DNA of 32,058 bases from the NCBI GenBank assembly GCA_017463245.1, contig JAFTPN010000004.1, forward strand, positions 1 through 32,058. The letters run 5' to 3'. Position numbers and translations under genes: made by a program. The notes below the pieces were generated by a model. The model saw nothing but the letters and a program-made list of their open reading frames with translations, was not told the origin of the DNA and made no database searches. How positions within the stretch are numbered: the first letter of the stretch is position 1; each line of letters opens with the position of its first letter. Shown here one piece after another: positions 19,262-29,361 of the stretch. The stretch is from Clostridia bacterium. Its GTDB lineage: Bacteria > Bacillota > Clostridia > Christensenellales > Aristaeellaceae.

Positions 19262-19300
19262 GTATAAGGATATGTATGCCAATAAGGGAGGTTGTTTCCT

Positions 19301-20317
19301 ATGAATATTCTGCTGACTGGCGGCGCGGGCTTTATTGCCACCCATACCTGCGTGGAGCTGATCCAGGCGGGGCATGACGTGGTGGTGGTGGATAACTATG
19401 TCAACAGCCATCCGGTGGCGCTCAAGCGGGTGGAGGAGATCGTGGGCAAGTCCATCAAGGCCTACGAGGCGGACGTGTGCGACAAGGACGCCATGAACCG
19501 CATCTTTGACGAAAACAAGTTTGATGCCGTGATCCATTTCGCCGGCCTGAAGGCGGTGGGCGAGAGCGTGTCCATCCCCCTGCGGTACTACCGCAACAAC
19601 CTGGATTCCACCCTCACCCTGTGCGAGACCATGGCTGCCCATGACTGCAAGCGGCTGGTGTTCTCCTCCTCTGCCACGGTGTATGGCGTGCCGGACGAGG
19701 TTCCCCTGCGGGAGGATATGTTCTGCAAGGGCTGCACCAACCCCTATGGCTGGACGAAGTACATGATCGAGAAGATCCTTGAGGGCGTGGTGAATGCCGA
19801 TCCCGAATGGAGCGTGGTGCTGCTGCGCTACTTCAACCCCATCGGCGCTCACGAGTCCGGCCGCATTGGCGAGGATCCCAGCGGCATTCCCAACAACCTC
19901 ATGCCCTATATCACCAAGGTGGCTGCGGGTCAATTGAAGCAGCTGAGCGTGTTCGGCAACGACTACAACACCCCTGACGGCACCGGCGTGCGGGATTACA
20001 TCCATGTGGTGGACCTGGCCAAGGGTCACGTGGCGGCCTGCGATTATGCCGCCAAGACCAACGGCTGCGAGATCATCAACCTGGGCACTGGCGTGGGCTA
20101 CTCCGTGCTGGACATTGTGAATGCCTTTACCAGCGTGAACGACGTGCCCGTTCCCTATGTGATCGCCCCCCGCCGCCCCGGCGACATCGACGCCTGCTAT
20201 GCCGACCCGGCCAAGGCGGAGAAGCTCCTGGGCTGGAAGGCCGAGAAGTCGCTGGAGGATATGTGCCGGGATTCCTGGCGCTGGCAGAGCGCCAACCCCA
20301 AGGGCTACGCGGACTAA
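19301..20317 (+). CDS. galE: UDP-glucose 4-epimerase
   Basis: 338 residues, standard GalE length. The NAD-binding loop is LLTGGAGFIATHTCVEL; most GalE proteins have GYIGSHT, so the third glycine is Ala13 here. The active site is complete: Ser124 (FSSSATVYG), Tyr149 and Lys153 (NPYGWTKYMIEK). RYFNPIGAHESGRIGEDPSG and GTGVRDYIHVVDLAKGH are GalE-specific. It interconverts UDP-glucose and UDP-galactose (or the N-acetyl forms), supplying galactose units for surface glycans. ATG 19301 is chosen (GGGAGG 19286-19291, 9 nt) over an in-frame ATG at 19292 that follows the SD directly. It ends at a terminator. Confidence 0.95.
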   Translation: MNILLTGGAGFIATHTCVELIQAGHDVVVVDNYVNSHPVALKRVEEIVGKSIKAYEADVCDKDAMNRIFDENKFDAVIHFAGLKAVGESVSIPLRYYRNNLDSTLTLCETMAAHDCKRLVFSSSATVYGVPDEVPLREDMFCKGCTNPYGWTKYMIEKILEGVVNADPEWSVVLLRYFNPIGAHESGRIGEDPSGIPNNLMPYITKVAAGQLKQLSVFGNDYNTPDGTGVRDYIHVVDLAKGHVAACDYAAKTNGCEIINLGTGVGYSVLDIVNAFTSVNDVPVPYVIAPRRPGDIDACYADPAKAEKLLGWKAEKSLEDMCRDSWRWQSANPKGYAD

Positions 20318-20329
20318 AGAATCATACAT

Positions 20330-20359
20330 GGCGCGGAGAACTGTTTTCCGCGCCTTTTT
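20330..20359 (+). terminator. Terminator between galE and the tubulin-like gene
   Basis: An 11-bp stem (20330-20340 with 20344-20354, one G-T pair), 3-nt loop CTG, then TTTTT (20355-20359). Only 18 nt separate the T-run from the next start codon, and no promoter fits in between. Confidence 0.8.
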
Positions 20360-20377: not shown

Positions 20378-22246
20378 ATGAAGCGCGTGATGGTGCTGTT
20401 TGGCGCTGCGGGCTGCGATGTGGCGCAGGCCGTGGTTTATGCTGCCTGCGCGGGCGCATGGTCGGGCGAAACGGATGTGCTGCTGGTGTGCAATGGCGCG
20501 GCGGCTCCGGCGGTGGAGCGCACCTCCCGCTTGTTTGAGCAGTACGAGCGCCTCCGTGCCCGCATGGAGCCGCTGCCCGGCGAGCGGCTGGGCTTCACCG
20601 CCTCCTTGCAGCTGCGCACCTGGCCGGAAAAGCTGCCCCAGTCCAGCCTGAACGCCTGGGCTGCCGAGGGCGACGATGCGCTGCTGCGGCAGGCTCTGTT
20701 CTCCGCGAAGGAGGCGGAGCAGCCGCTGGATGCCGACCTTTCTGGCTGCGATGGCGCAGCGCGGGCGCTGTTTGCCGCGCTGATGAAAACGGATGTGCCC
20801 CTGGCCGATTTGCCGGAGGATGCGCGCATTGTGCTATCCGGCAGCCTTTCCGACGGCTGGGGCGCGGCGGGCATGGATGCCTTTGCCCGCTGGCTGGCGC
20901 CCAGGCAGATGGCATCGGTGCTGCTCATGCCCTATGCGGGGCAGGACAGCCATGCCCACCAGCGGGCGGAAGCTGCGCTGAACGGCCTTGCCCATGGGGA
21001 GACCGTGTATGTGCTGGGCAGCAGCGAGAGCGACTGCGCCTCCGCGTCGCCGGATGCGGCCAACCTGGTGGCCTGGCTGGCAGCCTGCTGCGGGGACAGC
21101 TACTTCCGTGCAGAAACCCCCGCCACGGGGCTGATGACCTACCGGGTGGCCTCCGGCAAGCTGGGGTGGGAAAGCTTCCCCGGCGCCTATCGCGTGTGCT
21201 TCGGCAGCCTGATGAAGGCTGCTGCCGCCTTCCGCCTGACCTTCGGGCCGGTGATCCGCCGGGGGCTGCTTTCCCCCAAGTGGCTGAGAGATAAGATGAT
21301 CGGCTGGTACGCGGGGTATTTCCGCCAGGCGCAAAAGCTGGAGGAACCCCAGCGCCAGGCCATGCTGGCTGAACTGGACGACGTGATGGCGCTGCTTTGC
21401 GGCTACACCGCATGGATGGGCGAAATGCTGCGGAATATGCCGCCGCTGCTGCGCTCCACCAGCGCCATGGAGCAGGCCAGACAGGCCGCAGAGGACAACT
21501 ACCGGCAGTACATCGAGACCGCCGGACAGCTGGAAATGATGCTCCGGGAGGCGGAGAGCAACGGCCTCATGCAGGAGAAGACCGTCCACCGCCACGACCT
21601 GGAGGACAACGAAGCCGAGAAGATGCAGAAGGTCTTCCAGCAGATCGAGGCGCGCAAGCAGGCGCTGGCAGAAGCACAATTGCCGCTGAACCAGCGCATC
21701 GGCGGCGCGACGCAGCTATTGATGATGAAGGGGATCCAGCGGGAGCTGAAGGCGCGCTCCGAGGAGCTGCATGCCCAGGCTGCCGAGGCGGCACGGCGCA
21801 TTGAGGAGGCGGCGCGCATCGCCACCAGCGAGGAGCAGTACCGCATCGAGACCGCCCGCACCAAGCTCCAGCGCATGGAGCGCTATGTGGCGCAGGTGGA
21901 CGCCTGCATGCTCATTGCCCGCCTGGAGCGGGAAAAGGCCAAGAAGGCCGGTGTGCGGCGCAATCCGCCGGAGATCGCCATGGATGATACCATGCCGGAG
22001 AACAATCTCTTCGATCCCGCCGCCCTGGAAAAGCTGGCGGCGCTGCCCGCCCAGGAGGACAAGAACGCCAAGCGCCTCTGGGCTGAGGCGGAGGACGCCT
22101 GGACTGGCCTGCTGCTGCCGGTGAAGGGCAGCGAAAGCAGCCTGAACGAGCTTTCAGGCCGGATGAAGACCAAGGAAGAATACGCATCCCCGGTGGCGGC
22201 GCTGCTGCGTGATGTGATGCTGACGGTGGCAAAGGAGGTGCGGTGA
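20378..22246 (+). CDS. Uncharacterised protein, candidate tubulin/FtsZ-like N-domain plus coiled coil
   Basis: 622 residues; I recognise no named family. The first strand and loop MVLFGAAGCDVAQAVVYAAC has the look of a nucleotide-binding Rossmann-like start. At about 150-190 a strand (RIVLSGSL) runs into SDGWGAAGM, a helix, and a strand (SVLLMPYA). This copies the order strand / glycine loop GGTG-x-G / helix / strand of tubulin and FtsZ, with the loop degenerate. Residues about 360-525 are charged and helical with heptad-like spacing (QLEMMLREAE, KMQKVFQQIEARKQALAEA, ARRIEEAARIATSEEQYRIE), probably coiled coil. There are no membrane segments or signal peptide. SD GGAGG (20366-20370) is 7 nt upstream. 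The stop overlaps the next start as TGATG. The tubulin relationship is inference. Confidence 0.6.
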   Translation: MKRVMVLFGAAGCDVAQAVVYAACAGAWSGETDVLLVCNGAAAPAVERTSRLFEQYERLRARMEPLPGERLGFTASLQLRTWPEKLPQSSLNAWAAEGDDALLRQALFSAKEAEQPLDADLSGCDGAARALFAALMKTDVPLADLPEDARIVLSGSLSDGWGAAGMDAFARWLAPRQMASVLLMPYAGQDSHAHQRAEAALNGLAHGETVYVLGSSESDCASASPDAANLVAWLAACCGDSYFRAETPATGLMTYRVASGKLGWESFPGAYRVCFGSLMKAAAAFRLTFGPVIRRGLLSPKWLRDKMIGWYAGYFRQAQKLEEPQRQAMLAELDDVMALLCGYTAWMGEMLRNMPPLLRSTSAMEQARQAAEDNYRQYIETAGQLEMMLREAESNGLMQEKTVHRHDLEDNEAEKMQKVFQQIEARKQALAEAQLPLNQRIGGATQLLMMKGIQRELKARSEELHAQAAEAARRIEEAARIATSEEQYRIETARTKLQRMERYVAQVDACMLIARLEREKAKKAGVRRNPPEIAMDDTMPENNLFDPAALEKLAALPAQEDKNAKRLWAEAEDAWTGLLLPVKGSESSLNELSGRMKTKEEYASPVAALLRDVMLTVAKEVR

Positions 22247-25200
22247 TGGCCGAGGGAATGACCTTTCTCCCCGACGAGAAGGACATTGAGCTTTCCGGCG
22301 GCGTGGGCATTGTGTCCGCACCCATCTCTGCGCTGAAAAGCCTTGCTGCGCCCCGCAAAACCCAGCTGGACGAGGAAAGCTGGCGGGGCCTATTGGCGCT
22401 GTGCCTGCTGGCCGACGCCTGGGGACTGCCCCATGTGCGGGTGAAGACCATCCAGCCCGCATCCTCCGGCTTCGCAGCGGCGGTGCTGGCGGAGCCGGTG
22501 CGGCTGATTTTGTGGGAACAGCAGGTGCTGGGCATTCTGTCCGCACAGGTGGGGGTGATCCCCGCCGCACAGCTGCCCGCGCTGGAATTGCCCCAGCGGG
22601 TCTTCTGGTACGACGGCGCATTCCACGATCCTACGGAAGAACTGAATGAGCGCGACAGGGCGATCCTTCTGCGGCGGCTCAGCGCGCTGAACCAGCAGGG
22701 CGACGCCATGGTGCAGCGCTTTCTGTCTGCGCTGACGCAGGCCGGGCTGAAAACCGCCCAGGCGGTGGCGCATCAGGACGGTGCCGGGCTGGCCAGCCTG
22801 GCGCTGCGGATGAAGGCCATCCTTGGCCAGGTGCCGGGCATTGTGGAGGAACGCTGCACCTATGTGGTGGCGGGCAATCCGCTGTTGCAGGCGCTGGCGC
22901 TGGAAGAGCGCACCGAGGCTGATGCACCCCAGTACGTATATACCTATCACGGTCAGCCCTTTGCCCGCAGCCACAGCGCGGCCTTCTGCGAGGATATTGC
23001 GCAGGAAGGCGTGCCGGAGGCCGTGGCGCGGGATATTCAGATGCTGGAGCGGTATTCTCCCCGCTGGCGGCAGCAGCTGGCCGCTAACGTGAACGCCTGG
23101 CTGGAGCAGCACCGGGACGACCGGGCGCTGCTGCCCGCTGTGCGGATGCTGGCGCAGGAGATCGCCCATCAGGCCGGGGTGCCGCTGCCCATGGAGACCC
23201 TGCACCTGCAATGGCCTTGGTCTGCCGATGGGGTGGCGAAGCTCTTGTGGCAGGAGGCGCTGGGCGCGGACATGGACGAGGGCATGGCGGCGCCCTTTGC
23301 AGACAAGCTGTGCCTGCTGCCCGGTGCCGCCTGGAATGCCCTGGGCGATGCGGTGCTGAGCCGCCTGTGCGTGCTGCAGGGCACCGATACGGAGCCTGCC
23401 AGCGCGGTGATCCCGCCCCTTTCCATGGCGTTGGCCGCCTGCGTGGGCGACAGGCTGGTGATGGAGAGCTTCTCCTTCCGCATGGCGGAGGGCGGCGTGT
23501 GCGCCTCCTTTGCCCTGCGGGGCAAGGAAACCGTGGTGCTGGAGCGCACCTACGCCCCGGAGGACATCCGCTGCCTGAATCCGGAGGAAGCGCCCACCGT
23601 GGCGGTGTGGCCCTGCCTCCCCCTGCCGGAGGAAAGCTGGCGGGCGTATTATGTGTACATCCACGGCGGTACGCTGCGGGCGTCGGCGCTGCAAAAGGGC
23701 GCATGGCGCACCACGGAGGATCGCCTGTTCTCTGTTTTGAAAACCGAGACCTTCCCGGAGATGATCGCCCTGCACGAGGGGGGCAGCAGCCTGGGCGCAT
23801 TGCCCAACATCCTGCCGCCCTGCCGCTCGGCGCAGACCGAGCCTGCCCTTGCCCTGATGGACGTGGGCGCGGCGGGCATCACCCTGGCGCTGCGCCAGGG
23901 CGTGGGGGAGGACATGGTGCGGGTGCCCGGGCTGGTGCGCACCCTGCTGCGGGGCGGCAAGGCGGCCTCTTTGGCTGAGGAATTCCTGCCTGCTGCGCCC
24001 ATTGGCCCCATCCTGCCTGCGGCGGTGGAGCTGTTCAACCTAAAGGACGACCCGCTGCCCCTGGTGGACGGGCATATCCTGATGCCGGAAAACTGCGAGG
24101 CGCTGGCCGGGCGGGATGCCAAGGCCATGCACAGCGCCTGGAAGTGGAGCGTGGACGAAGCCTCCCGCAAGGCGCGGCGGCTGATGCTGCACCAGGCCAT
24201 GCTGACGGCCTCGCTGGCGGCGGTATTGAAGGGCGCACCCTCCATTGCCTGGCGCATCGCCCTGCCTGAAAGCTTGGCGGCGGAAGGCCGGAGGGAACTG
24301 TGGCAGGAGATCACCTCCCTGGCGCCGGTGGTGGCCGAGGAATGCGGTCTGCCCCTGGGAGAGCGAACCATTGCCCATGCGGACGAAAGCATGGCGCTGG
24401 GCGCTTACCTGCGGGGCGAGGGCGGCATCCGCGGCGGCTTTGTGGTGCTGGATGTGGGCAGCAGCGATGCCTCGCTGGCGCTGTGGCTGCGGGGCATGAA
24501 CCGCCCTGCGGTGCGGTGCAGCCTGCCCCTGGGCGTGCAGTCCATGCTGCTGGATGGGCTGCTGCAATCCCCCAGCGTGCTGGAGAGCGACTTTGCCGAC
24601 CTGCAGGACGAAAACGCCCGCCGCAGCATCCTTCTGCTGGCGCAGCAATTGCGCGCTGCTCATGGGCGCAAGGCGGTGGAGAAGTGCCGGTTCCTCTTGG
24701 ATCAATGCCTGCGGGAGCATGGCGCGGCGCTGAGTCGCCACATGGACATCCGTTTCAACCAGGGGCGCACCACGGTGACCCAGGCGCTGGTGCTGCAGGC
24801 CTTTGCGGCCATGCTCTCCATCAGCGGTCTGGCGCAGGAGCAGGTGCGGCGGGATCCCCTTTTGAACGACTATCTCCCGGCTGAAATGACCTATGTGCTG
24901 GCAGGCCGTGGCAGCCAGCTGATGAGCGCCATGCCGGAGCATATCAAGTCCGCTCTGGCACAGTTCGTGCGGCTGGAAATGAGCGGCGACCACCCGGTGC
25001 GCAGCCTGCGCATCCTGCAAAGCGCCGTGCCCAAGGCGGAGGTGGTGCTGGGGCTTGCCCGCCTGACGGAGGTGCATACCACCGCCCCCGCAGCGCCTCA
25101 AAGCCTGCGCGCCAGCTCCCCCTTGCATATGCCGCCGGAGCTGCTCATCATGCGGTTCCTGTCGGCCTTCCGCGGCGTGTTCCCCCAGGCCTGCGAACTG

Positions 25201-25359
25201 CTCTACAGCCATGTGTTTGACGGCTATGGCATGATCACCGCCGAGGGGGAGCGTGCCATCCGCAGCGCAGCGGCGCGGCACTTTGCCTCCGGTACTGAGC
25301 CCGAGGCTGCCCTGGCGGCCTGCCTGGGCGAATTGCGGCAGATCGCCCAAACCGAATAA
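22246..25359 (+). CDS. Uncharacterised large protein with candidate actin/Hsp70-like ATPase region
   Basis: 1,037 residues from ATG 22246 (GTG 22243 is an in-frame alternative), with an excellent SD AAAGGAGGTG at 22231-22240. Residues 1 to about 530 match nothing I know and include helical segments. The second half has three motifs in the ASKHA (actin/Hsp70/sugar kinase) order: phosphate-1-like LALMDVGAAGITLALRQ at about 535-552, phosphate-2-like FVVLDVGSSDASLALWL at about 732-748, and adenosine-like YVLAGRGSQL at about 883-892. LPLGERTIAHADESMALGAY just before phosphate 2 resembles the connecting helix region. There is no membrane segment. The size and layout recall SrfB-like large ATPases, but I cannot claim membership. 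It is translationally coupled to the tubulin-like gene; yitT-like follows 18 nt later. Confidence 0.6.
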   Translation: MAEGMTFLPDEKDIELSGGVGIVSAPISALKSLAAPRKTQLDEESWRGLLALCLLADAWGLPHVRVKTIQPASSGFAAAVLAEPVRLILWEQQVLGILSAQVGVIPAAQLPALELPQRVFWYDGAFHDPTEELNERDRAILLRRLSALNQQGDAMVQRFLSALTQAGLKTAQAVAHQDGAGLASLALRMKAILGQVPGIVEERCTYVVAGNPLLQALALEERTEADAPQYVYTYHGQPFARSHSAAFCEDIAQEGVPEAVARDIQMLERYSPRWRQQLAANVNAWLEQHRDDRALLPAVRMLAQEIAHQAGVPLPMETLHLQWPWSADGVAKLLWQEALGADMDEGMAAPFADKLCLLPGAAWNALGDAVLSRLCVLQGTDTEPASAVIPPLSMALAACVGDRLVMESFSFRMAEGGVCASFALRGKETVVLERTYAPEDIRCLNPEEAPTVAVWPCLPLPEESWRAYYVYIHGGTLRASALQKGAWRTTEDRLFSVLKTETFPEMIALHEGGSSLGALPNILPPCRSAQTEPALALMDVGAAGITLALRQGVGEDMVRVPGLVRTLLRGGKAASLAEEFLPAAPIGPILPAAVELFNLKDDPLPLVDGHILMPENCEALAGRDAKAMHSAWKWSVDEASRKARRLMLHQAMLTASLAAVLKGAPSIAWRIALPESLAAEGRRELWQEITSLAPVVAEECGLPLGERTIAHADESMALGAYLRGEGGIRGGFVVLDVGSSDASLALWLRGMNRPAVRCSLPLGVQSMLLDGLLQSPSVLESDFADLQDENARRSILLLAQQLRAAHGRKAVEKCRFLLDQCLREHGAALSRHMDIRFNQGRTTVTQALVLQAFAAMLSISGLAQEQVRRDPLLNDYLPAEMTYVLAGRGSQLMSAMPEHIKSALAQFVRLEMSGDHPVRSLRILQSAVPKAEVVLGLARLTEVHTTAPAAPQSLRASSPLHMPPELLIMRFLSAFRGVFPQACELLYSHVFDGYGMITAEGERAIRSAAARHFASGTEPEAALAACLGELRQIAQTE

Positions 25360-25377: not shown

Positions 25378-26238
25378 ATGAAGCAGGAAGTACAAAAGCA
25401 GCTGAAGGAATGGCTGCTGATGACGCTGGGTACGCTGCTGCTGGCGGCGGGCGTGTATTTCTTCAAGTTCCCCAACAATTTCTCCACCGGCGGCGTCAGC
25501 GGCATTTCGGTGATACTGGGTCATTATTTCCCCGCCATCACCCCCGGCGACTTCGTGATGGTGATCAACGTGGCGCTGCTGATCGTGGGCTTTGCGGTGT
25601 TTGGCCGCAGCTTTGGCGTGCGTACCTGCTATTGCAGCCTGCTGATGAGCGGCTTCATCTGGGTGATGGAGCGGATGTGCCCCCTTGCCCAGCCCATGAC
25701 CAGCCAGCCCCTGGTGGAGCTGATCTTCGCGGTGGGGCTGCCGGCGGTGGGCTCGGCCATATTGTTCAACATGGACGCATCCTCCGGCGGCACGGACATT
25801 GTGGCCATGGTGCTGCGCAAGTTCACCAGCCTGGACATCGGCAAGGCGCTGATGCTTTCCGACTGCGTCATCACCCTGATGGCCTGCGTGGCCTTCGGCA
25901 TGGAGACCGGTCTGTTCTCGGTGCTGGGTCTGTTGATCAAGAGCGTGCTGGTGGACATGGTGCTGGAGAACATCAATGTGCACAAGTATTTCCACATCAT
26001 CACCGCCAACCCCAAGCCCATTGAGAAGTACATCACCAACGAGCTGCACCGCGGCGCCACCGAAATGAAGGGCGAGGGCGCCTACACCCATCAGGGGCGC
26101 ACCGTGCTGCTCACCGTGATGAACCGCCGCGAGGCCATTATGCTCCGCAAATATGTGAAGCAGGTGGATCCCAGCGCGTTTTTGCTGATCATGAACACGG
26201 GCGAGATCATCGGCAAGGGCTTCCGCGGAACCAACTGA
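25378..26238 (+). CDS. YitT family membrane protein (DUF161/DUF2179)
   Basis: 286 residues. About five to six membrane segments lie in residues 10-195 (LLMTLGTLLLAAGVYFF, FVMVINVALLIVGFAVFG, LIFAVGLPAVGSAILF, CVITLMACVAFGM). Family motifs are FPNNFSTGGVSGISVIL and NMDASSGGTDIVAMVLRKF. The cytoplasmic C-terminal DUF2179 domain is KYFHIITANPKPIEKYI through VLLTVMNRREAIMLRKYV to DPSAFLLIMNTGEIIGKGF. YitT proteins are very common in Firmicutes; transport of an organic solute has been suggested but the substrate is not known in general. The ribosome site is weak (AAAGG), which fits coupling to the gene 18 nt upstream. TrmH follows after 16 nt. Confidence 0.92.
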   Translation: MKQEVQKQLKEWLLMTLGTLLLAAGVYFFKFPNNFSTGGVSGISVILGHYFPAITPGDFVMVINVALLIVGFAVFGRSFGVRTCYCSLLMSGFIWVMERMCPLAQPMTSQPLVELIFAVGLPAVGSAILFNMDASSGGTDIVAMVLRKFTSLDIGKALMLSDCVITLMACVAFGMETGLFSVLGLLIKSVLVDMVLENINVHKYFHIITANPKPIEKYITNELHRGATEMKGEGAYTHQGRTVLLTVMNRREAIMLRKYVKQVDPSAFLLIMNTGEIIGKGFRGTN

Positions 26239-27620: not shown

Positions 27621-27658
27621 AAACCCTCCGTATGACGCAAATCTCATGCGGAGGGTTT
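27621..27658 (-). terminator. Terminator of the glycosyltransferase pair
   Basis: A 14-bp stem (27621-27634 with 27645-27658, one G-T pair) around a 10-nt loop. On the minus strand it is followed by TTATTTG, extending the T-run, and it lies 3 nt past the stop codon at 27662. Confidence 0.85.
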
Positions 27659-27661
27659 CGT

Positions 27662-28597
27662 TTACCCAAATATCATCTGCCCCAGCCGTGTCACCCGGCT
27701 CTGCATGGTGCAGCCCAGCTTCTGCACGGCCAGCACCCGGCGCAGCTTGGGCATCTTTTCGGTGGCCAGATATGCGTCAATGATGCACCCTGCCTTCTGG
27801 GGCAGCGCCTCGCCATAGGCATCGCGGAAGGCGCGGGTGTGGGTGTAGGTCAGGGCGATGCGCGCCTTGCCCTTCTCCCATTGCGACAGCGCCTTCGCAC
27901 CGCGCTGCATCTGCGTCTGCTGGCTGGCGCCCATCACGTTCACGCCGTGCTGGCGGTAGTTCACCAGCGGGGCATCCACAAAGATGATCTGCCCGAAGGC
28001 CGCTGCCGTCAGCGCAATGAACCAGTCGTGCATGTGCATTTGGCCGGGGTCGCCGTGCTGCACCACCAGGCGGCGCAGGGCGGCGTTCATCAGCAGGGTG
28101 CAGCCGGTGACGTTGTTCTGCACCAGCAGCCGGGGAAGGGTGACCGCCGTTTTGTCCCAGCCCTGGTGGGCAAAGAAGCTCTCCTGCAGGGTGTGGCCAT
28201 CCGCATCCACCAGCCGGGCATCGGAGTGCACCAGCAGGGGTGTGTCAGCGCCATAGCGAGCCTCGGCCTGCTCCATGGCGGCGCGGCAGCGGGAGAGGCG
28301 GTCGGCAGCCCACACATCGTCCTGATCGCACAGGGCAGCGTAGTCGGCGGTAGACTGCTGCATCAGGCTGAGGAAATTACCAATGGCACCGTAGTGACGG
28401 CCGTTGTCAGCCGCCAAGCAAAAGCGACTGTCAGCGCAGGCTGCTTGCAGCAGGGCAGGGGTGCCGTCGGTGGAGCCGTCGTCCTGCATCAATACGGAGA
28501 AGCTGGGGTCGTCCTGATTTCGCAGGGAGGCCAGCTGCTGGGGGAGGAACCGCTCCCCGTTGTAGCAGGCCATCAGCACTTGGATGGTCTTCACCAT
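27662..28597 (-). CDS. Family 2 glycosyltransferase
   Basis: 311 residues from ATG at 28597, beginning MVKTIQVLMACYNGERFLPQ. GT-A motifs: MQDDGSTDGT (nucleotide-binding aspartates), YAALCDQDDVW (the DxD-type metal site; CDQDDVW is common in rhamnosyl- and capsule transferases) and MHMHDWFIALTAA (acceptor side). No membrane segments are predicted. It transfers a sugar from a nucleotide donor to a growing surface glycan; donor and acceptor are unknown. It overlaps the upstream glycosyltransferase gene by 7 nt and has only a weak ribosome site, so coupled translation is likely. Confidence 0.85.
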   Translation of the reverse strand: MVKTIQVLMACYNGERFLPQQLASLRNQDDPSFSVLMQDDGSTDGTPALLQAACADSRFCLAADNGRHYGAIGNFLSLMQQSTADYAALCDQDDVWAADRLSRCRAAMEQAEARYGADTPLLVHSDARLVDADGHTLQESFFAHQGWDKTAVTLPRLLVQNNVTGCTLLMNAALRRLVVQHGDPGQMHMHDWFIALTAAAFGQIIFVDAPLVNYRQHGVNVMGASQQTQMQRGAKALSQWEKGKARIALTYTHTRAFRDAYGEALPQKAGCIIDAYLATEKMPKLRRVLAVQKLGCTMQSRVTRLGQMIFG

Positions 28598-29361
28598 TTC
28601 CAGCCCCATTTCATAAAGAATTTGAAAATGGACACGATCTGGCGCATATTCCCCTTGAAGGTGCGGGTGTTCTCCCGCGCCCAGGCGTGGGTGATGCACA
28701 TCTCCGGGTGGTACACAATGGGGCCAATGGCCATGGCACGGCGGCTCAGGTCGGAATCCTCCTGGTAGAGGAAGAACCGGGGATCAAAGCCCTTGAGCTG
28801 GCGGAACACGCTGGTGCGGATCATCAGGAAGCAGCCCGTGGCAAAGCCCACGGAGATAGGCGTGGCCACATCCTGATCCGCCAGGGTGAACTCCCGCCGC
28901 CAGCGGCGGAAGCATCCGCCCAGCTTTTCCAGCCTGCCGCCCAGCAGGTATTTGATGGTGGGCTGCATCTTGGGAAGGAACTGCTCGGTGCCGTCGGCGT
29001 TGAACACGCGGGGCGTGAGGATGGCGATCTCCGGGTGGGCGTCCATGTAGGCGACCATGCGGGAGATCAAGTCAGGCGGGAAGGTGACATCCGGGTTCAC
29101 CATCAGGTGATAGCGGCTTTTCAGCAGGGGCAGCGCCACATTGTTGGCACGGCCGAAGCCCAGGTTGCTGCTCTGGGGCAGGATGTGCGCGCCGGGGCAT
29201 TGCCAGCGGATGCGCTCGGCCATGGTGTCCTCGGGGGAATTGTCGACGATATACAGGTCAATGGGCAGGTCGGAATCCTGCAAACATTGCACGGTGTTCA
29301 GCACGTCATTGGGCGCGTGATACAGCACGATGCACGCAGATACCTTGGGATCAGTCAGCAT
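28591..29361 (-). CDS. Family 2 glycosyltransferase, WbbL/rhamnosyltransferase-like
   Basis: 256 residues. The GT-A core shows SACIVLYHAPNDVLNTVQCL, LYIVDNSPED, SSNLGFGRANNVA, LMVNPDVTFPPDL (DxD equivalent) and GFATGCFLMIRTSVFRQLKG followed by FDPRFFLYQEDSDLSRR. This set is typical of WbbL-like rhamnosyl- or related transferases. No membrane segment is present, though the basic aromatic C-terminus (IFKFFMKWGWKW) could lie on the membrane. GGAGG (29371-29367) is 5 nt before the ATG and the promoter is at 29394-29422. It is the first gene of a two-gene unit. Confidence 0.85.
   Translation of the reverse strand: MLTDPKVSACIVLYHAPNDVLNTVQCLQDSDLPIDLYIVDNSPEDTMAERIRWQCPGAHILPQSSNLGFGRANNVALPLLKSRYHLMVNPDVTFPPDLISRMVAYMDAHPEIAILTPRVFNADGTEQFLPKMQPTIKYLLGGRLEKLGGCFRRWRREFTLADQDVATPISVGFATGCFLMIRTSVFRQLKGFDPRFFLYQEDSDLSRRAMAIGPIVYHPEMCITHAWARENTRTFKGNMRQIVSIFKFFMKWGWKW

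Follow-up and report, generated by a model that had tools for sequence, protein, structure and literature searches.

A co-inherited pair of tubulin-like and actin-like proteins, fused in one genus, points to an undescribed two-part bacterial machine

The 32,058-nucleotide contig JAFTPN010000004.1 of a Clostridia bacterium with a genome of 2.7 Mb, which is referred to here in its whole length as the window, carries two large overlapping genes that we designate A and B. Gene A encodes a putative tubulin/FtsZ-superfamily protein resembling the Tubulin_2/FtsZl1 group, and gene B encodes a putative giant ASKHA protein, that is, a member of the actin/Hsp70/MreB superfamily. The two genes are co-inherited, and this pair, which is fused in one genus, points to an undescribed two-part machine. 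We are confident that A and B constitute one functional module. Based on sequence and profile comparisons, they probably form a cytoplasmic tubulin-like/actin-like complex, which would be linked to the membrane in the manner of FtsZ and FtsA; filament formation by the system has to be rated lower than the complex itself. The chances are about even that the pair represents an undescribed class of cytomotive or scaffold machine outside the divisome, with a tubulin/actin-superfamily heteromer as its core, a single polypeptide in one genus and a tubulin half that would be a pseudo-GTPase driven by the actin half.

Gene A (20378..22246, 622 amino acids) and gene B (22243..25359, 1038 amino acids from the GTG at 22243 or 1037 amino acids from an alternative ATG at 22246) are located on the plus strand, as are the hairpin, the motifs, galE and the YitT gene of the window described below. 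The genes overlap in the sequence TGATG at 22244-22248, and the 3' end of A contains a Shine-Dalgarno sequence for B (AAGGAGGT at 22232-22239; AAAGGAGGT at 22231..22239 in the feature entry), which lies 6 nt upstream of the ATG. Both open reading frames (ORFs), the overlap and the internal ribosome site were found as described in the original prediction. Homologues of A and B are present in all 18 genomes of the window's genus that were examined. The B match of one genome (G007) is listed with one internal TGA and yet reads as an open ORF of 1069 amino acids. When compared with the closest relative, A has a ratio of nonsynonymous to synonymous substitution rates of 0.126 and B one of 0.141, and six other comparisons yielded values between 0.225 and 0.329. 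A and B are real genes and they are under purifying selection.

Among 60 relatives, B was detected in 23 genomes and A in the same 23. The initial count for A had been 22, and the A gene of G057 was recovered with a better model. Relatives in the named collection are metagenome-assembled genomes, several of which derive from the gut of deer, sheep and goat according to their titles. When 396 genomes of the window's order were searched, B was present in 19, which are spread over five of 142 genera. The same question could be addressed in a second order, which belongs to another class of the same phylum. There, 38 of 151 genomes contained B at E up to 1e-8. The A profile was run separately, on these 38 and then on the order sample, which agreed with the B sample in size, in tallies and in the 20 negatives listed, and it identified exactly the same 38 genomes, neither gene being detected in the other 113. 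Co-occurrence was counted on all 38 genomes; the B locus was read in 21 of them and a second A locus in 11. Moreover, three genera (g193, g345 and g387) are mixed because some of their species have both genes and others have neither. The chance of two identical sets of 38 among 151 genomes is 1.4e-36 if relatedness is ignored, and relatedness weakens the true figure. One genome of the second order (G893; loci L244 and L269) contains two A genes and extra B fragments on other contigs, and it possibly harbours two systems. Of 299 genomes sampled across the phylum, only G000 and G672 showed B, and thus the system is patchy. A search of a phylum sample of 329 genomes using a 14-row B profile gave matches in 32 genomes, and full B proteins were again restricted to G000 and G672. 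In the other 30 genomes, the matches are short (E 3e-5 to 1e-3), are centred around the phosphate-2 region and lie in frames of 190-739 amino acids, most of them 300-480; they were regarded as ordinary proteins of the MreB/FtsA/Ppx type and left out of the count. No relative of the pair emerged from two pattern scans of viral contigs.

Physical linkage of the two genes is common. In the 70 loci that were read, A and B are adjacent in 42 and fused in seven, while 12 loci contain only A and nine only B, one locus of each of the latter kinds being the contig ends of a single genome (G011). The fused genus belongs to the same family as the genus of the window, and all seven of its genomes with B encode A followed by B in a single open frame of 1722-1756 amino acids. 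Three of the fused genes are located on contigs of 3.26, 3.39 and 3.41 Mb. Together with the identical distribution in the second order, the adjacency and the fusion support the earlier idea of a two-component system. Furthermore, trees of A and B from 57 genomes with both proteins (L069 and L269 were left out) show a distance correlation of 0.81, compared with a maximum of 0.20 in 1000 permutations, and share 35 of 54 bipartitions.

The assignment of A to the tubulin superfamily, as proposed in the original prediction, is supported by profile matches of its relatives. Core alignments were built from 19 A and 19 B proteins. When the 19 A members were scanned singly at E up to 1, PF00091 matched 12 of them (best 4.4e-5) and PF13809 matched 11 (best 4.4e-6), and the families that came next matched two. 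In a whole-genome search, the A protein of G030 exceeded the PF13809 cut-off with its in-frame pieces summed (27.6 vs 27; best piece 26.2), and the A protein of the second-order locus L130 reached 25.3, which is below the cut-off of 27. An hhalign comparison of A with seven Tubulin_2 references from the same phylum gave a probability of 87.8 and a P value of 3.3e-6 over 229 columns, and decoys did not exceed 1.2. The alignment extends from strand 1 and the T1 loop to past the T4 loop and stops near residue 290. The hhalign decoys, a GalE family profile (neg3) among them, were three reversed profiles, the wrong partner families and eighteen clusters of neighbouring ORFs, which were called by a simple longest-ORF rule, so that some may be antisense frames. 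L103 was left out of the A profile and L069, which has a broken B, out of the B profile. One Tubulin_2 reference is also retrieved by an A model (E 3.6e-5). With PF00091, a separate FtsZ over the cut-off was identified in all of 21 genomes searched, including G000, and A was found below the cut-off in three.

The layout of the window's A protein fits that of FtsZl1/Tubulin_2 as far as can be predicted, with an N-terminal FtsZ-like domain of the nucleotide-binding type (residues ~1-290), a coiled coil and a mostly helical C-terminus. The T1-like glycine loop (20399..20416) reads FGAAGC in the window and GGTGxK in distant relatives. At the position of the tubulin signature T4 (20840..20872, residues 155-165), the window has GSLSDGWGAAG, the degenerate loop that had been noticed originally, and distant lineages have GSxFGGTGASG. 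Of the 37 A rows in the motif table, 21 show GGTG at this position. It is missing in the six rows of the window's lineage, in the six rows of the fused genus and in L056, L058 (SGTG), L067 and L069. Of the long coiled coil that had been claimed for A, a helical, probably coiled-coil region at residues ~360-535 (21455..21982) can be retained; it is suggested by the composition and by weak matches of a 14-row A profile to PDB chains, which are mainly coiled-coil or helical.

The placement of B in the ASKHA superfamily is likewise supported via its relatives, in agreement with the actin/Hsp70-like character that had been proposed. The comparison of B with MreB by hhalign gave a probability of 87.0 and a P value of 4e-6, with a second co-linear block scoring 9.3 and decoys at or below 0.6; about 84 columns align well. 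The B protein of L130 passes the cut-off of MreB_Mbl (PF06723; 28.4 vs 27). Searching the PDB at E up to 10 with the 14-row B profile retrieved ten distinct sequences, all of which are actin/ASKHA proteins, MreB being first at 0.0026 and the only one below E 0.01. Three motifs follow each other in ASKHA order, starting at residues 540, 737 and 888, about five residues off the numbers given originally. The phosphate-1 motif (23860..23883) is DVGAAGIT in the window and DFGTSNT in distant relatives. The phosphate-2 motif (24451..24474), which forms the centre of the MreB match, is DVGSSDAS in the window and DIGGGTTD or DVGGGSTD in relatives (DxGGGSTD in the distant ones). The adenosine-type motif (24904..24918) corresponds to the second co-linear MreB block and is GRGSQ in the window and GNGGQ or GRGAW in relatives, with GNGG in the distant proteins. 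The window's B protein retains the Asp and Gly framework of the three motifs. The N-terminal ~430 amino acids of B did not match anything. Among the 19 B members, weak matches to Ppx-GppA (in two) and to DDR (in one) were also recorded. The B gene of L069 (9442-12627, genome G019) is broken by TAG at three in-frame positions, the only stops within 1061 codons. One of 13 long ORFs at this locus ends in TAG, and decay, an assembly error or TAG read-through are all possible.

The surroundings of the pair suggest a connection to the cell envelope. The window locus adjoins galE and exopolysaccharide genes. The gene galE (19292..20317) is the upstream neighbour and belongs to the context, outside the pair. 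An intrinsic-terminator-like hairpin of 11 pairs followed by TTTTT lies between galE and A (20330..20354) and suggests that A and B are transcribed separately from galE. The hairpin is suggestive only because the terminator scan also exceeds shuffled sequences, with 10 sites in 8 kb compared with 4.7. A gene for a YitT-family membrane protein (25378..26238) starts 18 bases downstream of B, and its product is a possible co-transcribed envelope partner in the window's lineage only. Of the 18 genomes of the window's genus, all have galE upstream within 2.5 kb of A and B, and 13 have an NTase gene; on the downstream side, yitT was found in 17 and spoU in 16. The loci of the fused genus have spoU downstream in seven of seven cases and galE upstream in four. 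The link to galE and yitT that had been postulated is a conserved trait of the window's genus that the fused genus shares only in part. Further downstream in the window, an ORF of 378 amino acids (27632-28768) has no Pfam or NCBIfam match; it occurs near A and B in four loci including the window.

In more distant lineages, the order lipoprotein gene, transmembrane (TM) protein gene, A and B is found in L113 and L114 of family f23, in L104, L111 and L070 of other genera of the family, and in six of 21 second-order loci (L130, L237, L240, L241, L244 and L251). In L238, L239 and L243, the lipoprotein gene stands at the opposite end of the operon. In the other loci, the lipoprotein gene, the TM gene or both were not seen, partly due to contig ends or the frame choice of the ORF rule. 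The window locus is among those without this lipoprotein. The four TM proteins that were tested have three or four hydrophobic segments. The lipoproteins of three lineages are homologous according to hhalign (99.1, 95.5 and 67.3; decoys at or below 1.9); a wrongly chosen neighbour in L242 was left out of their alignment. The second-order lipoproteins contain the segments DVYWDATxSMxGYT and ITDLFESD, which by eye resemble von Willebrand factor A (vWA) domains. Pfam vWA models matched none of the nine family members (L130:11786-13090 and those of L237, L240, L241, L244, L251, L238, L239 and L243), and hhalign comparisons of the lipoprotein with three proteins encoded beside Tubulin_2 genes gave 0.7, 0.4 and 0.6, which is the decoy level. 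A and B themselves look soluble. No segment of the window's B or of A (491 amino acids) and B (1119 amino acids) of L130 is above the hydropathy threshold, and the sole segment of the window's A above it corresponds to strand 1/helix 1 (1.68). In the fused protein of L102 (1722 amino acids), one segment of the A part is borderline (156-175, 1.67) and another, within the B part, is stronger (1528-1553, 2.22). In family f23, a gene for a protein of about 1400 amino acids follows the A-B operon (L114:12371-16600 and L048:2402-6511), and Sel1 repeats were recognised in the L114 copy together with an NPCBM match below the threshold. Directly 3' of an unlinked A gene lies an ORF whose Gly/Asp-rich repeats look RTX-like by eye (L265:2063-4660, genome G771).

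From these observations a working model can be derived. A would bind to B in the way that FtsZ binds FtsA, an interaction to which the fusion lends indirect support, and an ATP-dependent cycle of B would control the assembly or docking of the coiled-coil protein A at the inner face of the membrane. The complex may then act on the envelope, either in remodelling or in the export of surface polysaccharides, via membrane partners; these would be the lipoprotein and the protein with three to four TM segments in the distant operons, and perhaps the YitT protein in the window's genus. The GTP-binding loops of A have decayed in both the window's lineage and the fused genus, where the motif framework of B is largely kept. 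With its GTP loops lost or degraded, A probably serves these lineages as a scaffold that does not turn over GTP and would be driven by B. Since the A tree places the window's lineage near the fused genus, one loss, two losses or long-branch attraction are possible.

Several results weigh against this model, and some of them are shared with competing explanations. The T7 loop of A could not be identified. No envelope partner is common to all lineages, and the TM proteins did not show demonstrable homology between lineages in hhalign comparisons. Moreover, no Pfam match to an FtsZ_C or Tubulin_C domain was obtained in A, either for the window protein, the 19 members or the distant proteins. The T7 and Pfam results would fit the possible, albeit rather unlikely, explanation that A and B constitute a nucleotide-switch complex for signalling or scaffolding at the membrane that does not form a polymer. 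B would then be a clamp of the Hsp70/FtsA type, A a non-polymerising relative of tubulin and the lipoprotein a sensor of the exterior. The loss of T1 and T4 in the fused genus and their degeneration in the window's lineage, the end of A in a probable coiled coil and the lipoprotein and TM partners of the distant operons would also fit such a switch. However, GGTG is present at T4 in more than half of the A rows, and the distant B rows keep full phosphate motifs. In addition, members of the tubulin and actin superfamilies commonly polymerise.

It is also conceivable that A and B have the proposed folds but are independent envelope proteins of one regulon, whose linkage and fusion would be incidental. 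Indeed, A and B are located on different contigs in 23 of the 38 second-order genomes, and they are adjacent in the remaining 15. The original prediction had named homologues lying apart in most genomes as a result that would speak against it, and by number this applies to the second order. However, all 23 genomes belong to the genus g391 and every one of them has retained both genes; in this genus, the TM gene adjoins A, away from B, in three of the seven loci inspected. Furthermore, the congruence of the A and B trees fits co-inheritance, but plain vertical descent may equally explain it. Independence of the two proteins is nevertheless highly unlikely, given their identical presence or absence in 151 genomes including the three mixed-state genera, and the in-frame fusion in seven of seven genomes, three of them with the fused gene on a megabase-sized contig.

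The fold assignments, which go via relatives, have to be weighed as well. No useful result came from searches of Pfam, NCBIfam, PADLOC and the PDB in which the window proteins were the sole queries. Neither protein has a Pfam match at E up to 1, because the nucleotide motifs have decayed (SDGWGAAG at T4 of A and DVGSSDAS at phosphate-2 of B), and NCBIfam gave a single match, which is sub-threshold and concerns A. PF13809 was found at E up to 0.001 in only two of 151 genomes of the window's order and missed genomes that have A, including G000. The hhalign comparison of A with FtsZ itself yielded 0.9, which is at decoy level (decoys up to 1.2), the aligned stretch starting at T4. No tubulin was retrieved from the PDB in searches with the window's A protein or with the 19-row and 14-row A profiles. 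The degenerate loop, the lack of a Pfam match and the FtsZ comparison could mean that A is another Rossmann-like protein with glycine loops and not a relative of tubulin. This is slightly less likely still, as the tubulin models match most A members and the next family only two, and as the Tubulin_2 match covers 229 columns from T1 to past T4, with decoys such as the GalE profile at background. Regarding B, only one of four B-bearing proteins tested (L130) passes an actin-family cut-off, none of the 19 B members matched actin models when scanned singly, and the 19-row profiles of A and B retrieved neither actin nor tubulin from the PDB. The earlier suggestion that B is SrfB-like, with a locus related to SrfABC, is the least likely of all and the identity was rejected because, despite the resemblance in size and ASKHA motifs, the PF07520 model at E up to 1 matched neither the window's B nor any of the 19 B members, three distant B proteins or one fused protein, and Pfam did not show an SrfC family in any of ten neighbours of the pair, which come from three distant operons.

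If the FtsZ-FtsA-like interpretation is true, a second tubulin-like/actin-like pair outside the divisome exists in two classes of one phylum, and the pairing of both cytoskeletal folds would be a repeated solution. The FtsZl1/Tubulin_2 proteins, which were reported in 2010 and are poorly understood, would gain a concrete partner. Moreover, the natural fusion makes the system readily testable, the protein of about 1700 residues being a single-gene handle on its function. The original prediction that no system with this pairing has been described agrees with searches of an open-access library, which yielded no account of such a pair or fusion, most subscription journals being outside the scope of the search. 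If the folds are as predicted, the fused protein has no natural tubulin-actin precedent that we know of.

SrfB is a large, ASKHA-like protein encoded in an operon. B shares the size, the ASKHA motifs and the operonic context with it, and differs from it in the lack of a PF07520 match. With MreB_Mbl (PF06723), B has in common the phosphate-2 region and the second co-linear block, but it is about three times longer and has no match over the whole length.

The closest relative of A is probably found among the FtsZl1 proteins (PF13809; Makarova and Koonin 2010). According to the main text of that study, these proteins consist of an N-terminal FtsZ-like domain, an extended coiled coil and a mostly helical C-terminus, and they are encoded in operons with membrane proteins, often vWA proteins (PMC2875224). 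As far as this main text goes, A resembles FtsZl1 in several respects: T1 and T4 loops are part of an FtsZ-like domain, behind which a coiled coil (a probable one in A) is located; a C-terminal domain of the FtsZ type cannot be recognised; a conventional FtsZ occurs as well; and the operons include membrane proteins. Unlike FtsZl1, A has an actin-superfamily partner, to which it can be fused; the main text names no such partner, does not mention MreB, FtsA, Hsp70 or SrfB, and its six uses of 'actin' do not refer to operon partners (PMC2875224). In passages of another study, Tubulin_2 proteins are treated as a divergent group and 'actin' and 'SrfB' are not mentioned (PMC9871819). At E up to 10, neither a B-like nor an MreB-like match was obtained in six Tubulin_2 loci. 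L131 (1056-4334, genome G660) contains two adjacent ORFs of the Tubulin_2 type with 496 and 548 amino acids, both over the PF13809 cut-off; no B-like match is present in the 6 kb read, and the two may represent another divergent tubulin-like pair. L132 (9112-10449, genome G471) has a Tubulin_2-like ORF of 445 amino acids below the cut-off in a region that by eye resembles a mobile element. Judged by these comparisons, the pair is a new relative of the FtsZl1 systems with an actin-superfamily core partner.

In bacteria, FtsZ and FtsA are, as far as we know, the only well-known case of a tubulin-like protein that works in close partnership with an actin-like one. Unlike these, the A-B locus lies beside galE and exopolysaccharide genes and does not provide the only FtsZ and FtsA of the cell, as the window's genome has its own FtsZ elsewhere. 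B is a protein of about 1040 amino acids with a large extra N-terminal half, A is without recognisable FtsZ C-terminal elements, and the pair is fused in one genus and patchily distributed. In common with FtsZ and FtsA, A and B combine a predicted tubulin-superfamily with a predicted actin-superfamily protein, their genes are often adjacent and a role at the membrane is likely.

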